Origin: a virus
Virus record (IMG/VR): IMGVR_UViG_3300001848_000808
Span: 1-23,472 of that record
DNA: 23,472 nucleotides
Reading direction: 5' to 3' (one strand)
In this document: positions 11,737 through 20,668 of the stretch, in pieces
Layout: the number at the start of each line of letters is the position of its first letter
How positions within the stretch are numbered: position 1 is the first letter of the stretch
Notes under the pieces: generated by a model
What the model was told of the DNA's origin: nothing
The model's database searches: none
What the model saw: the letters and a program-made list of their open reading frames with translations, nothing else
Translations under genes and position numbers: made by a program

Positions 11737-14052
11737 ATGAAAAGTATTTCGGTAATCAAACGCGATGGCAAGCGCGAGCCATTGTCTTTAGAAAAATGGC
11801 AATCTCAAATTGCCAAAGTGTGTCAGGGTATTGCTGATGTAAGTCAGAGCATGATTGAAATCAAGGCTCAGCTGCATTTTTATGATGGCATTACTACCCA
11901 AGAAATTGACGGTATCACGCTGAGAGCCACAGTGGATCTTATTGATGTAGAAACCAACCCCGATGTGGGTCATATCAACTATCAATACGTGGCTGGCAAA
12001 CAAAGACTCAGCATGCTGCGCAAGGATGTGTATGGTCAATATGATCCGCCCGCATTGTTAGAAATCGTCAAACGCAATGTTGAAGTGGGACTGTATACCC
12101 CAGATCTCTTGACCTGGTACACAGCCGAAGAATGGGCTCGCATGGATGACATCATAGATCATGAAAAGGACGAGGCCTACAGTTATGCCGCTGTGGAGCA
12201 GCTGATTGAGAAGTATCTAGTACGTAATCGCGCTACCAAGCAGATCTACGAAACTCCCCAGGTTCGCTACATGGTAGCTGCGGCCACTGTGATGCATGCC
12301 GAACCGCCAGCTGCGCGTATGAAATTCGTCAAAGAGTATTATAATGCTGCCAGTGATGGACTTTTTACCTTGGCTACTCCTGTACTGGCTGGCCTTGGAA
12401 CCCCCACGAAGCAATTTTCCAGTTGTGTACTCATTCGCAGTGATGACGATCTTGACAGTATCTTTGCCAGCGGTGAGATGATGGCCAAGTATGCCAGCAA
12501 ACGCGCTGGTATTGGTCTTGAAGTGGGACGACTGCGTCCCTTGGGATCACCCATACGTGGTGGCGAGATCATGCACACCGGCATGGTCCCCTTTCTCAAA
12601 AAATGGTTTGGAGATCTGCGTTCTTGCAGTCAAGGAGGTATACGCAATGCGTCGGCTACTGTGTTCTACCCTATCTGGCATCATCAGTTTGACGATCTCA
12701 TCGTGCTCAAGAACAATCAGGGAACCGATGAAACCCGAGTGCGTCATATGGATTATGGCGTCGTGCTCAATGCTTTCTTTTGGCGCAGATTCCGCAACCG
12801 AGAAAACATAACCTTCTTTGACCCCAACGAAGTACCGGATCTGTATGAAGCCTTTTATCGAGATACACAGCGGTTTGAAGAATTGTACGTGAAGTATGAA
12901 AAGAAACGAGATCTGCGCAAAAAAGTCATGAGCGCAGAAGAAGTGTTCAAGGGCGGTATCCTCAAGGAACGCACCGACACTGGCAGGATCTATCTGGTAT
13001 TCATTGATAACGTCATGAACCAGGGTCCATTTGATCCTGAATATCACACCATTTATCAGAGTAACCTTTGCTGTGAAATCCTCTTACCTACACGACCGTT
13101 CAAAAGACTGGATGATCCGGAAGGCCGAATCGCTCTTTGCACCCTGGGGTCAATTAACTGGGGTGCCTTCCGCAATCCTGAGGACATGCGCCGCGCTTGT
13201 CGTGTGCTGCATCGTAGCCTATGCAATATTCTGGATTATCAGGATTTCTTGAGTATTCAGAGTCGCACCAGCAATGAAGAAATTTCGCCCCTGGGTATAG
13301 GTATTACTAATCTGGCATATTGGCATGCCAAACGCAATCTTGAATATGGTGATGAGGACGCCTTGGCCGAAGTCAAGACCTGGATGGAACATCAGGCCTA
13401 CTATCTCACCGAAGCCACTGTGGAATTGGCCCAGGAACGTGGCCCTTGCCGAGATTGGCAGCATACTCGTTATGGTCAAGGTGAATTTCCTTGGGAACGT
13501 CGTGCAGCGGGTGCAAACGAACTTACAGATTTTACCCCCGAGCTGGATTGGGAACCCTTGCGTGATCGCATGCGCGAGCATGGTGTGCGTAATGCTACCT
13601 TGATGGCCATTGCTCCGGTGGAGTCAAGCTCGGTAGTGATCAATAGCACCAATGGTATTGAAATGCCCATGAATCTCATCAGCACCAAGGAAAGCAAGGC
13701 TGGCAGTCTGGTTCAGGTAGTACCCGAATATCAAAGGCTGAAAAATCGCTATCAGTTGATGTGGAATCAAACCGACTGTGTGGGTTATCTCCGCACCGCA
13801 GCGGTCTTGGCCGCTTATGTGGATCAAAGTATCAGCACCAACACTTTCTACAACCCTGCACATTTCGCGGATCGCAAGGTGCCTACTACCCTAATAGCAC
13901 GGAATCTCATGTTGGCACATCACTGGGGTATCAAGACCTTCTATTACAGTCTCATTAACAAACAAGGTGTCAAGGCCGAGTTTGAAGAACCCGTGAGTGC
14001 TATAGATGATGTGGTAGAGGGTGAAGACGACTGCGAAGCCTGTAAACTTTAA
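11737..14052 (+). CDS. nrdA: Ribonucleoside-diphosphate reductase alpha subunit, class Ia
   Basis: Large catalytic subunit that reduces ribonucleotides to deoxyribonucleotides. Residues 1 to about 90 form an ATP-cone allosteric domain (SVIKRDGKREPLSLEKWQSQ). The active-site set is complete: C230 in KQFSSCVLI, N443, C445 and E447 in SNLCCEILLPT, and C468 in IALCTLGSIN. The tyrosine pair for radical transfer is in FYYSLI near the C-terminus, and the C-terminal redox shuttle is C766 and C769 in CEACKL. The length of 771 residues is normal for class Ia. AGGAAA precedes the ATG. nrdB follows after 8 bases, then a glutaredoxin, so reductase and electron donor form one unit. No intron, intein or homing-endonuclease insertion is present, unlike many phage nrd genes. 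Confidence 0.97.
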   Translation: MKSISVIKRDGKREPLSLEKWQSQIAKVCQGIADVSQSMIEIKAQLHFYDGITTQEIDGITLRATVDLIDVETNPDVGHINYQYVAGKQRLSMLRKDVYGQYDPPALLEIVKRNVEVGLYTPDLLTWYTAEEWARMDDIIDHEKDEAYSYAAVEQLIEKYLVRNRATKQIYETPQVRYMVAAATVMHAEPPAARMKFVKEYYNAASDGLFTLATPVLAGLGTPTKQFSSCVLIRSDDDLDSIFASGEMMAKYASKRAGIGLEVGRLRPLGSPIRGGEIMHTGMVPFLKKWFGDLRSCSQGGIRNASATVFYPIWHHQFDDLIVLKNNQGTDETRVRHMDYGVVLNAFFWRRFRNRENITFFDPNEVPDLYEAFYRDTQRFEELYVKYEKKRDLRKKVMSAEEVFKGGILKERTDTGRIYLVFIDNVMNQGPFDPEYHTIYQSNLCCEILLPTRPFKRLDDPEGRIALCTLGSINWGAFRNPEDMRRACRVLHRSLCNILDYQDFLSIQSRTSNEEISPLGIGITNLAYWHAKRNLEYGDEDALAEVKTWMEHQAYYLTEATVELAQERGPCRDWQHTRYGQGEFPWERRAAGANELTDFTPELDWEPLRDRMREHGVRNATLMAIAPVESSSVVINSTNGIEMPMNLISTKESKAGSLVQVVPEYQRLKNRYQLMWNQTDCVGYLRTAAVLAAYVDQSISTNTFYNPAHFADRKVPTTLIARNLMLAHHWGIKTFYYSLINKQGVKAEFEEPVSAIDDVVEGEDDCEACKL

Positions 14053-14060
14053 GGAACATC

Positions 14061-15161
14061 ATGAGCAAAGCACAATACAATCTCAGAACCGACACCAATT
14101 ATCTCAAGCGCCAGATGTTCCTGGATCCTCAGGGTCCTGTGACCATACAGCGATTTGAAGAATTCCGCTATCCCAAGATTGCCAAGTTTGAAGAAATGGC
14201 TCGGGGATTCTTTTGGATACCAGAAGAGATCAGTCTCACCAAGGATGCCAATGACTTTAAAGAATCTAGCGAAACTGTACGGCACATCTTTACCAGCAAT
14301 CTTCTGCGCCAGACTGCACTAGACAGTATTCAGGGACGATGCCCCACACAGATATTCCTACCTGTGGTCAGTGTTCCCGAGCTAGAAGCCCTGTGTCTGT
14401 TATGGGGGTTTTTTGAAACCAATCTACATAGCAAGAGCTACAGCCATATTATACGCAACATCTACAATGTGCCCAAGGACGAATTCAACAAGATACATCA
14501 GACGCAGCCCATCGTAGACATGGCCGCGCAAATAGGCCGATACTATGACGATCTCTACGTGATTAATTGCCGTCGAGAAATGGGACATAAAATTGATGAG
14601 CAGGATCATGTGCGAGCCATATGGTTGGCTCTGCATGCCAGCTATGCCCTAGAAGCCCTGCGATTCATGGTATCATTTGCTACTAGCTTGGCCATGGTAG
14701 AAAACCGTATCTTTATTGGCAATGGCAATATCATTAGCCTGATCCTACAGGACGAAATCCTGCATCGCGACTGGACTGCCTATATCATCAATCAAGTGGT
14801 GCGGGATGATGCTCGATTTGCGCAAGCTCAAAAGGATTGTGCAAACGAAGTATATCAGATCTACCAGGACGTGATACGTGAAGAAAAAGAGTGGGCCGAT
14901 TATCTATTCATGAAAGGGCCTGTGATTGGTCTCAATGCTGCTATACTCAAAGACTTTATGGACTATACCGCTAGCCTGGCCCTGCGCGAGATTGGTATAC
15001 GCTATACCGAACCTGCACCGCGTAGTACTCCCATACCCTGGTTCAGCAAACATACCAGTACCGACAAAAAGCAAACTGCCCTGCAAGAGAGCGAAAGCAC
15101 CTCATATGTTATCGGGGTGATGTCGGACGCCATAAATTATGATGAACTACCCCAAATTTAA
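14061..15161 (+). CDS. nrdB: Ribonucleoside-diphosphate reductase beta subunit, class Ia
   Basis: Small subunit holding the di-iron centre and tyrosyl radical. Ligand candidates are D88 (LLRQTALDSIQG), E119 and H123 (FFETNLHSKSY), E198 (SYALEALRF), E232 and H235 (LQDEILHRDW); the radical tyrosine would be Y127. The E119-H123 spacing is ExxxH, one residue longer than the ExxH I know from E. coli NrdB, while H to Tyr spacing is normal. The C-terminus (SSYVIGVMSDAINYDELPQI) is the acidic/aromatic tail that docks on NrdA. Length of 366 residues is normal. AAGGA precedes the ATG, 8 bases after nrdA ends. Assignment is secure; the metal-site spacing deserves an alignment. Confidence 0.96.
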   Translation: MSKAQYNLRTDTNYLKRQMFLDPQGPVTIQRFEEFRYPKIAKFEEMARGFFWIPEEISLTKDANDFKESSETVRHIFTSNLLRQTALDSIQGRCPTQIFLPVVSVPELEALCLLWGFFETNLHSKSYSHIIRNIYNVPKDEFNKIHQTQPIVDMAAQIGRYYDDLYVINCRREMGHKIDEQDHVRAIWLALHASYALEALRFMVSFATSLAMVENRIFIGNGNIISLILQDEILHRDWTAYIINQVVRDDARFAQAQKDCANEVYQIYQDVIREEKEWADYLFMKGPVIGLNAAILKDFMDYTASLALREIGIRYTEPAPRSTPIPWFSKHTSTDKKQTALQESESTSYVIGVMSDAINYDELPQI

Positions 15162-15170
15162 AGGAGATGT

Positions 15171-15410
15171 ATGAAAGCCATAGTGTGGAGTCGAGATCAA
15201 TGTGCCTATTGCGAGCAGGCCAAGAATCTTTTGAAAAGTCAAAATATCCAGTACGAAGAACGCAACATCAGTCATGGATATACTCGCGAGCAGTTGTTGG
15301 AAGCAGTGCCCGGGGCTCGTACTGTGCCTCAGATTTTTATTGATGATCGCCATATAGGTGGATTCACTGAGCTGCGTGATTATCTTCAAGGAGCTCGTGA
15401 TGCAATTTGA
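15171..15410 (+). CDS. Glutaredoxin
   Basis: 79 residues with a complete glutaredoxin fold: active-site CAYC at 11-14, TVPQIFIDDRHIGGF containing the cis-proline, and the GG-F-TEL glutathione-binding end. It would re-reduce the phage ribonucleotide reductase, the role of T4 NrdC. A very strong AAAGGAG lies just before its ATG, 9 bases after nrdB. Its last 11 bases overlap the following Sm-like gene. The length is typical of phage glutaredoxins. Confidence 0.93.
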   Translation: MKAIVWSRDQCAYCEQAKNLLKSQNIQYEERNISHGYTREQLLEAVPGARTVPQIFIDDRHIGGFTELRDYLQGARDAI

Positions 15411-15699
15411 CATCAATAGTGTTTATACCCTCAAGCTCATGTCGGGGGAAGAGCTAGTGGTCAAGGTCACTGAAAACAGTGCCGACACCATCACAGTGAG
15501 CGAGCCCGTGAGCGTGGCGCCGGGACCACAGGGCATGAATCTCATACCCAGCCTGTTCACCGCAGATCATGACAATCCCATTACCATAAATAAATCAAGC
15601 ATAGTGATGCAGGCTCTAACCGATGAACCGGTCCGGGTCAAATACATCGAGGCCACTACCGGTATACGTGTGCCCGAAAAGAAAATATTGATGAGTTAG
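15400..15699 (+). CDS. Sm-like (LSm-fold) phage protein
   Basis: 99 residues from the ATG at 15400. The alternative in-frame start at 15358 lies deep in the glutaredoxin gene, while CAAGGAG precedes 15400. The sequence (INSVYTLKLMSGEELVVKVT, then TITVSEPVSVAPG) has the five-stranded small-barrel pattern of Sm/LSm-like proteins, with a Gly-Glu-Glu turn and a later strand (VRVKYIEATTG). Sm-like proteins of this kind are conserved in marine T4-like phages, in my memory without known function. An RNA-binding role like Hfq is possible but the signature is weak. It carries an internal CATAAATA octamer and is followed two bases later by the PAAR gene. Confidence 0.72.
   Translation: MQFDINSVYTLKLMSGEELVVKVTENSADTITVSEPVSVAPGPQGMNLIPSLFTADHDNPITINKSSIVMQALTDEPVRVKYIEATTGIRVPEKKILMS
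15585..15592 (+). promoter_or_regulatory. Late-promoter-like octamer CATAAATA upstream of the PAAR module
   Basis: CATAAATA matches seven of eight bases of the T4 late motif and lies within the Sm-like gene, 108 bases before the PAAR start. It could drive the tail-tip genes 15701-17933 late, separating them from the nucleotide-metabolism genes upstream. Confidence 0.4.
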
Positions 15700-15700
15700 C

Positions 15701-15988
15701 ATGCCCAATTGTCAGCGCCTAGGTGATCCCAACACAGCCGGGGGTATAGTTACCTCGGGCGTGCCTACTGTTAGGGTCAACAATCGCTTGATCGTGATTC
15801 CTGGTATGCCTGTGACTCCACATCCCTGTTGCGGTCAGCCCGGTTGCGGTATACATTGTTCGGCTGTGACCAGCATGGGTAGCCCTAACGTACGAGCAGC
15901 CAACAGCCCAGTTATACGTACCGGTGTGGATCTAGACACCTGTGGACATCCGCGGGCAGGTGGTAGTCCCAACGTGAGAGTGAACTAA
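15701..15988 (+). CDS. PAAR-domain spike-tip protein
   Basis: 95 residues that fit the PAAR fold: an almost complete chain of short Gly/Pro/Val strands (RLGDPNTAGGIVTSGVPTVR, then VIPGMPVTPHPCC, later SMGSPNVRAANSPVIRTGVD). PAAR proteins form the sharp metal-bound tip of contractile tails; in T4 this is gp5.4, on the gp5 spike. It is rich in Cys (4, 43, 44, 49, 53, 81) and His (41, 52, 83), more than needed for the usual single metal, though which bind zinc or iron is unknown. It starts two bases after the Sm-like stop and is coupled by TAATG to the next gene, pointing to a tail-tip operon. Confidence 0.88.
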   Translation: MPNCQRLGDPNTAGGIVTSGVPTVRVNNRLIVIPGMPVTPHPCCGQPGCGIHCSAVTSMGSPNVRAANSPVIRTGVDLDTCGHPRAGGSPNVRVN

Positions 15989-17121
15989 TGGCCAGTACAA
16001 GCACTTATTCGCCCCTGGCCTTGACCGCAGGGGTGGGAATTTATAATAATACCGCATTTCAGGTCAATGCTGCATTTACTACCAATCGCGCAGCCTATGA
16101 ATCTAGTCAGCCGATTGCCAATCTCATTTTTGTTATCAATGAGTGTGCCAATAATGGTAATCTCGGCATATCGGCTAATACCCTGGCCAATGTCAAGAGC
16201 ATAGGTGCCAACGTGAGTGGCAATTACCTACCCTGTCTGGGAGATAGCCTGCCTAGTAATCTCGTGGCCACGGTGGGCAACGTGGGCTTGATAGGTAATA
16301 TATCTAACACTGCCAACGGTACCATGGGCAATGCCGCGGTGTTTTGTCAGGCATTTAGCGCCGCGCTGGGCTATATTGGTATCACCAACGGTATCATTAA
16401 CAGCGCCACCAATAGCAACCAGTACCTTGGTCCCACGTTCACCAATCAGAACAATCTCATTACCGGCGATCTCATGCGTGTGAATCCGGCGTTGCCTGCT
16501 TTCGGTGAAGATTTACGTAATCTGGGTAACTTATTTGACTTTGGCGATTTCGGGACGCCCTCGGCACTGCTATCCAAACTGAGCAAGCAGGGCAACATGA
16601 TCAATGGTACCTTGCCTGCTGTGCAGGCTGCGCTCCTGGCCCATGGCTTGACCAATCAAAACATACAAGATCTCGTGAATCAAAATCGCGAGAGCCTGTT
16701 CAACCCAGATGGATTGACACAGCCCGAGTTTGATCGCTTGCAGAAACAGGCTTATCCAGCACTGTGTGACGTGACCGGAGCCGACTTACAGGAGGTCTTG
16801 GCCATCCTGGAAGTGACCACTGCAAATTTAACCGCCATGTGTGATCTATTGGATCCCATCAAGATATTCCCCAACAGCTATGCCAGCCTCACTCTGCCCA
16901 CACCCTCGGGTGACATACTAATTTTCAATACCGACGGGTCGGTCAACAGTGCGGTCACGCCCATACTCAACAGTGGTACTCTGGTACCAGTGGGTTGTGA
17001 TCAGCTGGCCAAGATACTGCCGCCAGCATCGGCCGCAGCCAACCGAGCCATACAGGTAGCGTTCGGGCAGGTAAAAAATCTTTCGTCGGTGCCCTTGCCA
17101 AGAGTGGCGGCTATATTATGA
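15988..17121 (+). CDS. Probable tail-associated protein downstream of PAAR
   Basis: 377 residues rich in Asn, Ala, Leu and Gly, low in charge, with no recognised domain. Early parts (VGIYNNTAFQVNAAFTTNRA) and repeated NxGxIG-type stretches (NVGLIGNISNTANGTMGNAA) look like extended virion protein. The segment LTNQNIQDLVNQNRESLFNP to AYPALCDVTGADLQEVLAIL is helical. It is not a fibre of known type. Position directly behind the PAAR tip (TAATG) and before a second similar protein (ATGA) suggests a baseplate or spike component, or an effector attached to the tip. The gene is certain; the function is not. Confidence 0.7.
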   Translation: MASTSTYSPLALTAGVGIYNNTAFQVNAAFTTNRAAYESSQPIANLIFVINECANNGNLGISANTLANVKSIGANVSGNYLPCLGDSLPSNLVATVGNVGLIGNISNTANGTMGNAAVFCQAFSAALGYIGITNGIINSATNSNQYLGPTFTNQNNLITGDLMRVNPALPAFGEDLRNLGNLFDFGDFGTPSALLSKLSKQGNMINGTLPAVQAALLAHGLTNQNIQDLVNQNRESLFNPDGLTQPEFDRLQKQAYPALCDVTGADLQEVLAILEVTTANLTAMCDLLDPIKIFPNSYASLTLPTPSGDILIFNTDGSVNSAVTPILNSGTLVPVGCDQLAKILPPASAAANRAIQVAFGQVKNLSSVPLPRVAAIL

Positions 17122-17933
17122 CCACGCGACTAGAGACTCTTGTTGGACTGGATCTGGTGGCCAATGTGGCCACCCCGGTACCTGCTGCTACCCAAGCCTT
17201 CTATGCAGGTTTGGCACAAGGCACTGGTCCCAATGGAACCTTTGTAGTCACTGATGTACTGCCGGGAGCGTCGGGCATAAGAGAAAATCCTGCCTTGACT
17301 TCGGCCTTGACCCTGATCAACAGCGGAGCAGCGGCTGGCCTGACCACGCTGTATCAGCAGATGCGATCAGTAGTGACTGATGGATATGGCACGCCGCCCA
17401 CTATCGTGATACCCACGGGGCCAGCAGCCAACACCTACGCCAGTTATGATGATGCCATCCAGGCTCTAGTAGTGGCCTCCAATAACGAAATTGGTAATAT
17501 CCGGGCCAACAGTATAGCTGCCTCATCGGTGGCTCAGGCCAACCAAGACTGGACCCTGATGTCGCATGGGTGGAGTCAGTCTGGAACCACGCAGAGTCTG
17601 GCCAGTATTAACTTATCCACGTTGCCCGCGGGTGCTCAAGTGCCGGTCACGGCATTTATTGGTCTCTTGGACAGTCTGGGCGTTGACACCCAAGAAGGCA
17701 TGCAGGCCCAATATCTCGAGAGCGTGGCCAATACTGGCAATCAATATGGACAAGCTGTGGTGGCCTGTTTGAGGCAGGGACGTAACAATGCAGCCATGAA
17801 CACAGCGGGTATAGGCCATGACAATGCAGTACCGGATCAACCCACCAGTGAGCCACCGCAGGCCAATCTGGGCAACGCTAACTATACCGTGAGTGAAGCC
17901 CGAGCCTACGTGAACAGCAATTTGACTAGCTAA
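17118..17933 (+). CDS. Second probable tail-associated protein of the PAAR module
   Basis: 271 residues, Ala/Thr/Asn-rich and neutral, with the same composition style as the upstream protein but no obvious sequence repeat of it. Helical segments such as YASYDDAIQALVVASNNEIG and TQEGMQAQYLESVANTGNQY alternate with Gly/Pro loops. The C-terminus (GNANYTVSEARAYVNSNLTS) is short and ordered-looking. No catalytic motif is seen. It overlaps the previous stop as ATGA and ends the module, followed by a promoter gap. Virion location is inferred from context only. Confidence 0.7.
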   Translation: MTTRLETLVGLDLVANVATPVPAATQAFYAGLAQGTGPNGTFVVTDVLPGASGIRENPALTSALTLINSGAAAGLTTLYQQMRSVVTDGYGTPPTIVIPTGPAANTYASYDDAIQALVVASNNEIGNIRANSIAASSVAQANQDWTLMSHGWSQSGTTQSLASINLSTLPAGAQVPVTAFIGLLDSLGVDTQEGMQAQYLESVANTGNQYGQAVVACLRQGRNNAAMNTAGIGHDNAVPDQPTSEPPQANLGNANYTVSEARAYVNSNLTS

Positions 17934-17949
17934 CTTGAGCACTTGGTGG

Positions 17950-17978
17950 TTGTGATCCAATTGGGATACATTTATAAT
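17950..17978 (+). promoter_or_regulatory. Sigma70 promoter upstream of the ligase region
   Basis: TTGTGA at 17950-17955 and a perfect TATAAT at 17973-17978, 17 bases apart, within the 74-base gap before the 18008 gene. The spacer holds the 8-base palindrome CCAATTGG (17957-17964), a possible operator half-seen. GGGAGA at 17998-18003 is the ribosome site for the first gene. Confidence 0.7.
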
Positions 17979-18007
17979 AGCAATCTATCACACCACCGGG
18001 AGAACTC

Positions 18008-18238
18008 ATGTCACGTATTAGCGTTTACAAAACCATTGAAGCCGAAGTCGATGTTGAAGTTGAGATAGATGATTTTGATACCGAAGATCTCGTGGCCGAA
18101 CTGGAGCGACGAGATTATCTCCCCAAGTCGGATCATTTGTTCCAGATAAACAAAATCTATGAAAAGCGTAGAATGGGTGTTGATTATCAACAAGAGCTGG
18201 ATGAATTGATTTGGCAAACACTGGGGAGGATCAGCTGA
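18008..18238 (+). CDS. Small acidic phage protein, function unknown
   Basis: 76 residues, strongly acidic in the first half (VDVEVEIDDFDTEDLVAELE), with a helical second half (EKRRMGVDYQQELDELIWQT). The alternating acidic/hydrophobic strand followed by a helix is seen in small proteins that mimic DNA or bind another protein, but no family is recognised. It is first behind a good sigma70 promoter, so probably early, and lies 31 bases before the ligase-like gene. A role with that protein is only contextual inference. Confidence 0.72.
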   Translation: MSRISVYKTIEAEVDVEVEIDDFDTEDLVAELERRDYLPKSDHLFQINKIYEKRRMGVDYQQELDELIWQTLGRIS

Positions 18239-18269
18239 TTCGGCTGACCCAGTAGTTGGAGGAGTCAAG

Positions 18270-19253
18270 GTGGCTGCTGCCTGGATCCTGGAGTTGGAAA
18301 GTTCAGACAGTCACCAGCACAAGGAACGGGTGATTGAAAAAGCCCTCATGGCTGCTCAATTGGGCAGTAGTGATGCTCAAGTGTTCCTATACAATTGCTA
18401 TGCAGCCTACAATCCCTACTGGACCTTTAACATACAACAGGTACCCGAGACTGAAGGCATTACGGGTCAAAGCAATCTCTGGGTTTCATTCTGGAGCCTC
18501 TTGGAGGCCTTGCGTACTCGCAGCGTGACTGGCGGCAATGCCCGGGCTGCTGTAGCGGAAATCAGCCAACGGTTTGACAGCGAAGAATGGAACGGGCTGG
18601 CACGTCGGGTGCTGCTCAAGGATTTGGCTTGTGGTATAAATGAAAAAATCATCAATCAAGTAGTGGGCAAGAGTCAGTGGCGCATCCCGATATTTGCCTG
18701 TCAGCTACCCGGATCTCACAACAATCACTCAAATAAACTACATGGTCAAAAACGCCTGGAGATCCAGTTGGATGGTATACGGGTGTTAGCAGTAGTGACT
18801 GAGTCATGTACTACGCTCTATAACCGAGATGGGCAGGTACTTGAAAACTTCCCCCACGTGCAAGATACAATTGAAGCCAATCGTGTGGCGCTCCGCCTGA
18901 TATATCCCCATGTACTGGATGGAGAAATTGTGGGAAATGATATGCACCCGGTATACCATATATTTGATGCTTTGCCCCTGGCAGAATTTGAGGCCGGTCA
19001 ATATCGTGTGCCCTTGCGTGATCGACTGGCTTGGTTGGATCGGCTACGCCGGGTGTTTTGGGATACCGATTGTTTGCGCATCATGAACGGTATTGAAGTT
19101 GATTTGGATACCGCAGCCGGACATGACCAACTGCGTCGTTATAGACTGGATGCAGCGCACGATGGATTCGGGGGTATCATGGTCAAAGATATGGCTGCGC
19201 CCTATGTATGCAAACGATCCAACGGCTGGATACAGCTTGAATCTGCTGTATAA
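18270..19253 (+). CDS. DNA ligase-like protein without catalytic lysines (pseudo-ligase)
   Basis: 327 residues starting at GTG behind GGAGGAG. The N-terminal half is helical like the ATP-dependent ligase N domain (LLKDLACGINEKIINQVVGK at 115-134). The adenylation domain follows: motif I reads LEIQLDGIR, with Gln166 where the adenylated lysine of KxDG should be; motif III is LDGEIVG (E219). Motif IV is FGGIMVKD with Gly301 replacing the usual Glu. Motif V is GWIQLESAV, where Gln322 and Glu324 replace both lysines. The protein ends there, so the OB-fold domain is absent. It should be unable to form the lysine-AMP intermediate, yet the frame is intact and codon use matches its neighbours, arguing that it is maintained. 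It may bind nicks or regulate the intact ligase next door. Could also be a decaying gp30. Confidence 0.8.
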   Translation: MAAAWILELESSDSHQHKERVIEKALMAAQLGSSDAQVFLYNCYAAYNPYWTFNIQQVPETEGITGQSNLWVSFWSLLEALRTRSVTGGNARAAVAEISQRFDSEEWNGLARRVLLKDLACGINEKIINQVVGKSQWRIPIFACQLPGSHNNHSNKLHGQKRLEIQLDGIRVLAVVTESCTTLYNRDGQVLENFPHVQDTIEANRVALRLIYPHVLDGEIVGNDMHPVYHIFDALPLAEFEAGQYRVPLRDRLAWLDRLRRVFWDTDCLRIMNGIEVDLDTAAGHDQLRRYRLDAAHDGFGGIMVKDMAAPYVCKRSNGWIQLESAV

Positions 19254-19273
19254 TCAAGCACTTAGCACAGCCA

Positions 19274-19302
19274 TTGACATCAAATACCAATTCAGCTATT
19301 AT
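19274..19302 (+). promoter_or_regulatory. Strong sigma70 promoter for the intact DNA ligase
   Basis: A perfect -35 TTGACA at 19274-19279, 17-base spacing and TATTAT at 19297-19302 (an overlapping TATACT at 19300-19305 is an alternative with 20-base spacing). It sits in the 77-base gap between the two ligase genes, close before the ATG at 19331. It is the best host-type promoter in the window and gives the ligase independent, probably early, expression. A GGGGCGAG stretch before the ATG is a modest ribosome site. Confidence 0.75.
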
Positions 19303-19330
19303 ACTGTTTTAGTCAACGATTGGGGCGAGT

Positions 19331-20668
19331 ATGAAATCAACTCTCGGCATTATTACCGAAATCGCAGCAACCGCCAGCACCAAAGCCAAAGAAGCAATTA
19401 TCCGGCGAGAAGAAAAGAATCCTGCGCTGCGAGCCACATTCGCTGCCGCATATGATCCCACCGTTTCCTACTATGTCAAGAAAATCCCCGCATACCTGAC
19501 TAAGGGTTCGGGCGAACTGTTGGAAGCGATCAAGAGCCTGGACCAGTTGGCAAAACGTCAGCTGACTGGGCAAGCGGGCATTGACCATCTGCAAAGCGTC
19601 CTGGAATCAGTCAGCGCAGATGATGCAAAAGTTATCGAGCGTATTATTGATCGCGACTTGAAGTGCGGTGCAAGCGATACGCTGGCTTCACGTGTTTGGA
19701 AAAAGCTGGTTCCGGAATTCCCCTACATGCGTTGTTCGCTGCTCAAGGCAGTCAAAGTTGAAAAATGGAATTGGCAGCAGGGTGTTATTAGCCAGCTCAA
19801 GGGTGATGGCAGTTTTGCCAACAGCGATATCGTTGATGGCGAAGCTGTGGTTTCCAGCCGCGCTGGCAAACAATATCCCGCCGGCGCACTGAAAAACATC
19901 ACTGACGAACTGGTTGCTGTATTTCCCGATGATGTGCGTGTTATTGGCGAACTGCTGGTTGAACGTGATGGCAAAGTTCTGCCGCGTGAAATTGGCAATG
20001 GAATCCTGAACTCGGTTGCCAAGGGTGGCGAGTTTGATGCAGGTGATCGTCCTGTTTACATGGTGTGGGACATTATCCCGCTGGAGTTGGCTGTGGCCGA
20101 TGGTCGCTGCAAAACGCCCTATACCGAACGCTTGGCCTCCCTTACTGCAATCCTCAATAAAGCCAAAACTAAGTCTGTTTCGCTTATTGAAACGCGCATC
20201 GTGCATAGCATGAAGGAAGCCTATGCTCACTATTTTGAACTGGTGAAAAAAGGGTTTGAAGGCACGATCATCAAAGAACCCCAGGGTGTGTGGGCCGATG
20301 GCACTAGCAAAGAACAAGTCAAACTCAAAGTTGAGTTTGAAGTAGATCTGGAGATCACTGGGTTCAATGCTGGCAACGGCAAAAATGCTGCTACCTTTGG
20401 TTCGATCGAATGCAAAACATCCGACAAGAAATTGGCTGTAAATGTGTCCGGCTTTACTGACAGTGAGCGTCTGCGCATTCACAAGATCCGCAAACAATTG
20501 CTTGGTACGATTATGACAGTCAAAGCCAATAGCATTATGCCCCCGGCGGGTAGTGGTGTGTATAGCCTGTTCCTCCCGCGCTTTGCGGAGTTCAGGGACG
20601 ACAAACGTGTTGCTGACAGCCTGGCTCGTGTGCAAGAACAATTTGATGCAGTGATCAAAGTAAAGTAA
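19331..20668 (+). CDS. 30: ATP-dependent DNA ligase, T4 gp30 type
   Basis: Seals nicks in replicating and repaired phage DNA. The N-terminal part (EIAATASTKAKEAIIRREEK, then VSYYVKKIP) lines up with T4 gp30. Motif I is QLKGDGSF with K157. Motif III is IGELLV (E207), then YMVWDIIP. Motif IV is FEGTIIKEP (E310, K315), motif V is VKLKVEFEVDLEI (K331, K333), and the OB domain fills 340-445. All catalytic residues are present; 445 residues is slightly shorter than T4 (487). The residue two after KxDG is Phe where many ligases have Arg. Codon use differs from the neighbours: I find no ATA for Ile, and an open antisense frame exactly in register shows no TTA, CTA or TCA over codons 120-437. This suggests transfer. 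It has its own promoter and a TAATG link to the next gene. Confidence 0.95.
   Translation: MKSTLGIITEIAATASTKAKEAIIRREEKNPALRATFAAAYDPTVSYYVKKIPAYLTKGSGELLEAIKSLDQLAKRQLTGQAGIDHLQSVLESVSADDAKVIERIIDRDLKCGASDTLASRVWKKLVPEFPYMRCSLLKAVKVEKWNWQQGVISQLKGDGSFANSDIVDGEAVVSSRAGKQYPAGALKNITDELVAVFPDDVRVIGELLVERDGKVLPREIGNGILNSVAKGGEFDAGDRPVYMVWDIIPLELAVADGRCKTPYTERLASLTAILNKAKTKSVSLIETRIVHSMKEAYAHYFELVKKGFEGTIIKEPQGVWADGTSKEQVKLKVEFEVDLEITGFNAGNGKNAATFGSIECKTSDKKLAVNVSGFTDSERLRIHKIRKQLLGTIMTVKANSIMPPAGSGVYSLFLPRFAEFRDDKRVADSLARVQEQFDAVIKVK

Follow-up and report, generated by a model that had tools for sequence, protein, structure and literature searches.

A degenerate resident DNA ligase next to a T4-type ligase in a phage genome: a possible non-catalytic accessory protein

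The ligase locus

The window, i.e. the whole stretch of viral DNA analysed here (23,472 nucleotides, IMG/VR record IMGVR_UViG_3300001848_000808), carries two neighbouring genes of the DNA ligase type. The first encodes a ligase relative without catalytic residues, here called the pseudo-ligase, and the second an ATP-dependent ligase of the T4 type. All features of the locus lie on the plus strand:

18258..18264, +, ribosome-binding sequence GGAGGAG of the pseudo-ligase gene (sequence)
18270..19253, +, pseudo-ligase, 327 aa, GTG start at 18270, stop at 19251-19253 (ORF and alignment)
aa 1-147 of 18270..19253, +, N-terminal DNA-binding domain of the pseudo-ligase
aa 148-322 of 18270..19253, +, nucleotidyltransferase domain of the pseudo-ligase
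19274..19302, +, sigma70-like promoter match TTGACA-17-TATTAT, 11/12 (consensus match only)
19331..20668, +, T4/RaK2/DLP6-type ATP-dependent DNA ligase, 445 aa, with OB domain (profile and alignment)

Loss of catalytic residues in the pseudo-ligase

Homology of the pseudo-ligase to ligase adenylation domains is indicated by the Pfam profile DNA_ligase_A_M (PF01068; 27.3 bits with a cut-off of 26.2), by PHROG 114 (E 8e-36) and by the Prochlorococcus marinus ligase Pmar-Lig (PDB 6ras, E 2e-48). By these profile matches, the protein is a relative of the Prochlorococcus/SPO1-type ATP ligases. It shares fold and domain order with Pmar-Lig (PDB 6RAR, 6RAS) and the SPO1-type ligases over aa 9-323 at about 30% identity; in contrast to the pseudo-ligase, these are complete enzymes with the lysines of motifs I and V and the OB domain. 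No relatives were found in 84,980 genomes of bacterial and archaeal species.

The earlier note had claimed the loss of four catalytic residues and a stop ahead of the OB domain, and both are borne out by the alignment and the end of the ORF. The motif I lysine nucleophile is replaced by Gln166, the motif IV glutamate by Gly301 and the motif V lysines by Gln322 and Glu324 (K166Q, E301G, K322Q, K324E), at positions where all relatives carry K, E, K, and K. The lysines of motifs I and V have been described as essential (PMC6698739). The OB domain with motif VI is missing, and the loop FQxLMxQAxRK after motif III is deleted as well. Thirteen more invariant sites are altered, including R15H, R120A, and K130Q, of which R120A is the same change as in an engineered Pmar-Lig mutant with unchanged activity (PMC6698739). 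Glu219 of motif III, Phe232 of motif IIIa, Lys306, Arg171, and Arg186 are retained.

An AlphaFold2 model, a check proposed in the earlier note, predicts an intact ligase fold with both domains folded (pLDDT 91) and Pmar-Lig as best PDB match. The input alignment consists mostly of intact ligases, and the model therefore indicates compatibility with the fold rather than proving stability.

The pseudo-ligase gene is identical at the nucleotide level in a second, independently assembled contig (L001), which rules out an artefact of sequencing, assembly, or frameshift. A putative remnant of the OB domain past the stop codon was only a weak tblastn extension, and the significant matches to the OB region of the resident-type ligase in the window either lay on the T4-type ligase or began at the end of the pseudo-ligase itself.

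The active T4-type ligase

The downstream ligase matches PHROG 114 over its whole length (E 1e-123) and keeps K157, E310, K331, and K333 in the alignment; its match to the OB profile PF14743 is weak and under the cut-off of this profile. The description of this enzyme as intact therefore stands for these four residues, with the qualification that the motif I arginine (KxDGxR) is absent, the sequence being KGDGSF. This arginine is likewise absent in the ligases of DLP6, hairong, RaK2, Nican01, and V45v66, and its absence is therefore a trait of the subfamily. The enzyme belongs to the same family as T4 gp30 and the other T4-type phage ligases (RaK2, DLP6, hairong). These are normally encoded by a single gene, whereas the T4-type ligase of the window adjoins the pseudo-ligase. 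With a promoter match of its own, the active ligase is not obligatorily coupled to the pseudo-ligase.

Origin of the pair

Relatives of the pseudo-ligase were found at about 100 IMG/VR loci, many of which carry nrdB of the same phage group a few kb upstream. At this locus, downstream of nrdB, the orthologues are single intact ligases. All complete orthologues (83/83) have the motif I lysine, the motif IV glutamate, both motif V lysines, and the OB domain. No second ligase was found at any of 98 orthologous loci, 72 of which include at least 1.5 kb of downstream sequence, and seven records of 220-347 kb encode exactly one ligase each. In the tree, the pseudo-ligase of the window nests inside the clade of these resident ligases.

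Since the orthologues are intact and without a second ligase, the pseudo-ligase is, on the evidence of alignment and phylogeny, the ligase originally resident in this phage group, which was displaced and has degenerated in the window lineage only. The active enzyme is, by the same sequence comparisons, a foreign T4-type ligase of a different subfamily that was placed directly behind the resident one. An ancient pair of paralogues is ruled out by the orthologous loci with one intact ligase and no second. Accordingly, the pseudoenzyme beside an active ligase proposed in the earlier note is supported by the residues lost in one protein and kept in the other, but its history is one of displacement and not of duplication. 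The note had also suggested examining homologues for conservation of the motif I glutamine and the early stop, and all 83 instead keep the lysine and the OB domain.

The isolate with the closest NrdA is Xanthomonas phage X1. It encodes a single T4-type ligase downstream of nrdA-nrdB-glutaredoxin (L312:8785-10074), and the type of ligase at this locus has therefore probably changed more than once.

Selection on the pseudo-ligase

The window lineage consists of two near-identical sequences, the window and L001, with zero differences in the pseudo-ligase; hence, no dN/dS can be obtained within the lineage. Of 86 positions that are invariant in 76 distinct orthologues, 17 are changed in the pseudo-ligase and five more are lost, whereas any intact orthologue breaks at most 5. 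The four catalytic positions all fall within these 17 (p 0.001), and some conserved hydrophobic sites are also altered.

A two-ratio branch test (w_fg 0.137 vs 0.097) was uninformative on the saturated branch, and a two-phase codon model with site classes, written for this analysis, was therefore used with a topology from FastTree. It describes an initial period under the constraint normal for a ligase and then a neutral phase (t2) amounting to 0.24 substitutions per codon (CI 0.12-0.33), and it is clearly preferred to a model with unchanged constraint (2dlnL about 27). For seven intact control ligases, the neutral phase was 0 or nearly 0. These results show that the ligase constraint on the pseudo-ligase has been lost; a different constraint may have taken its place.

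The same results make a recent relic a serious rival explanation, which is possible but clearly short of an even chance. In this scenario, the arrival of the T4-type enzyme made the resident ligase redundant; having lost its 3' end, it is now drifting, and the short time elapsed is the sole reason for its open frame. Besides the neutral phase and the number of broken invariant sites, the restriction of a dead ligase of the window type to one lineage is in favour of this explanation. It is at odds with the complete absence of stops and frameshifts from the frame. With about 78 neutral substitutions at t2 0.24, the probability of encountering no stop is about 0.03-0.04; it is 0.19 at t2 0.12 and 0.01 at t2 0.33. 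Furthermore, the relaxed component is uneven: the neutral phase is 0.33 for the nucleotidyltransferase domain and, for the DNA-binding domain, 0.12 (CI 0-0.24). It is 0.50 (CI 0.16-0.8) for K/R columns and 0 for Gly/Pro columns. The intervals overlap. A simple relic would also leave unexplained that similar dead ligases are fused or conserved in other phages (see below).

The suggestion of the earlier note that the protein was repurposed rather than decaying is thus upheld in part: it agrees with the frame free of stops and frameshifts, with the weak relaxation of the DNA-binding domain, and with the retention of dead ligase parts in independent cases. On the other hand, a relaxed phase was detected in spite of the open frame, and close homologues carry the lysine and the OB domain, which the note itself had named as evidence against repurposing when combined with random decay and frameshifts.

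Dead ligases in other giant phages

On a 543-kb phage contig, one gene (L208:2966-5419) encodes a protein of 817 aa that joins a degenerate SPO1/Pmar-type ligase (aa 1-335) in frame to a complete T4-type ligase behind it. The motifs of the dead half read VLDGG (motif III), GGVLIK (motif IV), and WIDFD (motif V), and the DG of motif I is lost. As in the window, the motif IV glutamate is changed to glycine, both motif V lysines are lost, the same loop is deleted, and the OB domain is missing. In the trees, the dead half stands beside L265 (support 0.94), apart from the pseudo-ligase of the window, and the T4-type half falls into a different subclade from the T4-type ligase of the window. Both halves thus belong to separate clades, so that the two pairs look independent, and a common origin as sisters is unsupported. 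Among about 80 T4-type ligase loci, no pseudo-ligases were found 5' of the ligase besides those of the window lineage and L208.

A RyR-domain gene lies upstream of the fusion gene, and a further kind of ligase remnant occupies the corresponding RyR-flanked position in other phages. In Sinorhizobium phage Phosso and Agrobacterium phage Atu_ph07, both isolates, and in eleven uncultivated sequences, the gene of an NAD+ ligase is directly preceded by one for a small protein (about 130-140 aa) that comprises the ligase DNA-binding domain and nothing else. The exception in flanking is L284, for which no RyR match was found. Examples are:

L277:4001-4402, L285:3947-4363, L286:5001-5408, ligase DNA-binding-domain remnants of 133-138 aa between the RyR-domain gene and the gene for the NAD+-dependent ligase

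In Phosso/Atu_ph07-like giant phages these proteins are annotated as DNA ligase or hypothetical protein, and no other ligases were found in six records of the group that were searched. The model of the remnant (pLDDT 93.5) resembles the DNA-binding domain of Pmar-Lig (TM 0.85). For eleven sequences, omega was 0.108 and differed from 1 with 2dlnL 430 (pairwise values 0.05-0.18). A catalysis-free piece of a ligase is therefore under purifying selection next to a replacement ligase.

Stand-alone DNA-binding domains of ATP ligases have been reported in a survey of jumbo phages for phages without a known ligase, e.g. AAX44695.1, and recruitment of the host ligase has been proposed as their role; ATP- and NAD+-dependent ligases occurred in mutually exclusive subsets of phages (PMC7824862). 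AAX44695.1 is found in P-SSM2, and its domain was not detectable or alignable with the profiles used here. The domains of these subgroup 2.1 phages resemble the pseudo-ligase in that a part of a ligase is kept without catalysis. In contrast to them, the window protein retains a nucleotidyltransferase domain and has a phage ligase next door, and it is therefore not a stand-alone domain in this sense. The Phosso-type remnant likewise consists of the DNA-binding domain only but adjoins an NAD+ ligase. What is new here is a dead ligase with a nucleotidyltransferase domain, its position beside a replacement ligase encoded by the phage, the fused form, and the combination of a DNA-binding-domain remnant with an NAD+ ligase seen in Phosso and Atu_ph07. 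Catalytically dead DNA ligases have hardly been described, and no paper on DNA-ligase pseudoenzymes of phages was found in a literature search limited to open-access texts.

A possible accessory role

The best explanation, with a probability of roughly 0.5, is that the dead ligase has been retained to assist the replacement ligase by binding DNA. The lineage would first have used a Prochlorococcus/SPO1-type ATP ligase at the window locus, before a T4-type ligase was acquired immediately downstream and took over catalysis. The old protein has lost its ATP and metal chemistry, visible at K166, E301, K322, and K324, together with the OB clamp, and has kept an open frame, a ribosome-binding sequence, a DNA-binding domain, and a nucleotidyltransferase domain that is predicted to be folded. 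It probably persists as an accessory without catalysis, which would bind DNA or partners in the replisome and help to place or stimulate the neighbouring ligase.

This interpretation draws on the recurrence of such leftovers in unrelated giant phages, once as a fusion, which suggests that the non-catalytic part still does a job. The L208 fusion and the Phosso/Atu_ph07-type remnants favour retention. Several points speak against an accessory role: the surface expected to contact DNA is weakened by R15H, R120A, and K130Q, the codon model prefers a recent neutral phase to unchanged constraint, the active ligase has its own promoter match, and the pairing is rare, with two lineages in about 80 T4-type ligase loci.

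A generalization is put forward tentatively, at slightly under even odds: large phages that swap their ligase may repeatedly keep the dead one, either whole except for its OB domain or reduced to the DNA-binding domain, because selection maintains it as an accessory subunit of the replacement, a T4-type ATP ligase or an NAD+ ligase. In one giant phage, the two are joined in one polypeptide. If the remnant is a partner, phage ligases would be two-part machines in which docking to DNA or the replisome and catalysis evolve separately, and replacement of an enzyme need not erase the old one.

Less convincing than the relic, and unlikely, is a role as decoy or regulator, in which the dead ligase is no helper but sits on nicks or ends, or draws away a host factor acting on the phage ligase. 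Such a role would be compatible with the modelled ligase-like DNA-binding fold without catalysis and with the retained Glu219 and its companions listed above, but it leaves unexplained why a dead ligase is fused to a ligase in L208 and why the genes of such remnants recurrently lie immediately 5' of a ligase gene. A trans-acting catalytic half or an alternative nucleotidyltransferase working without the motif I lysine is highly improbable, since the residues of the nucleoside pocket are kept but the motif I lysine, the motif IV glutamate, both motif V lysines, and the OB domain are all missing.

Variation in related ligase genes

The window and L001 are nearly identical across 13270-19449. Within the T4-type ligase gene (19450-20659) they differ at 40 sites, which are grouped in patches, and right after this gene they diverge, a pattern suggestive of recombination around the acquired ligase. 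Among the resident-type ligases, one gene has an intein-like insert that splits motif I (KLDG^C; L010:5001-7727), and another has an in-frame deletion of motif III and the following loop, its other motifs being intact (L180:5890-7098).
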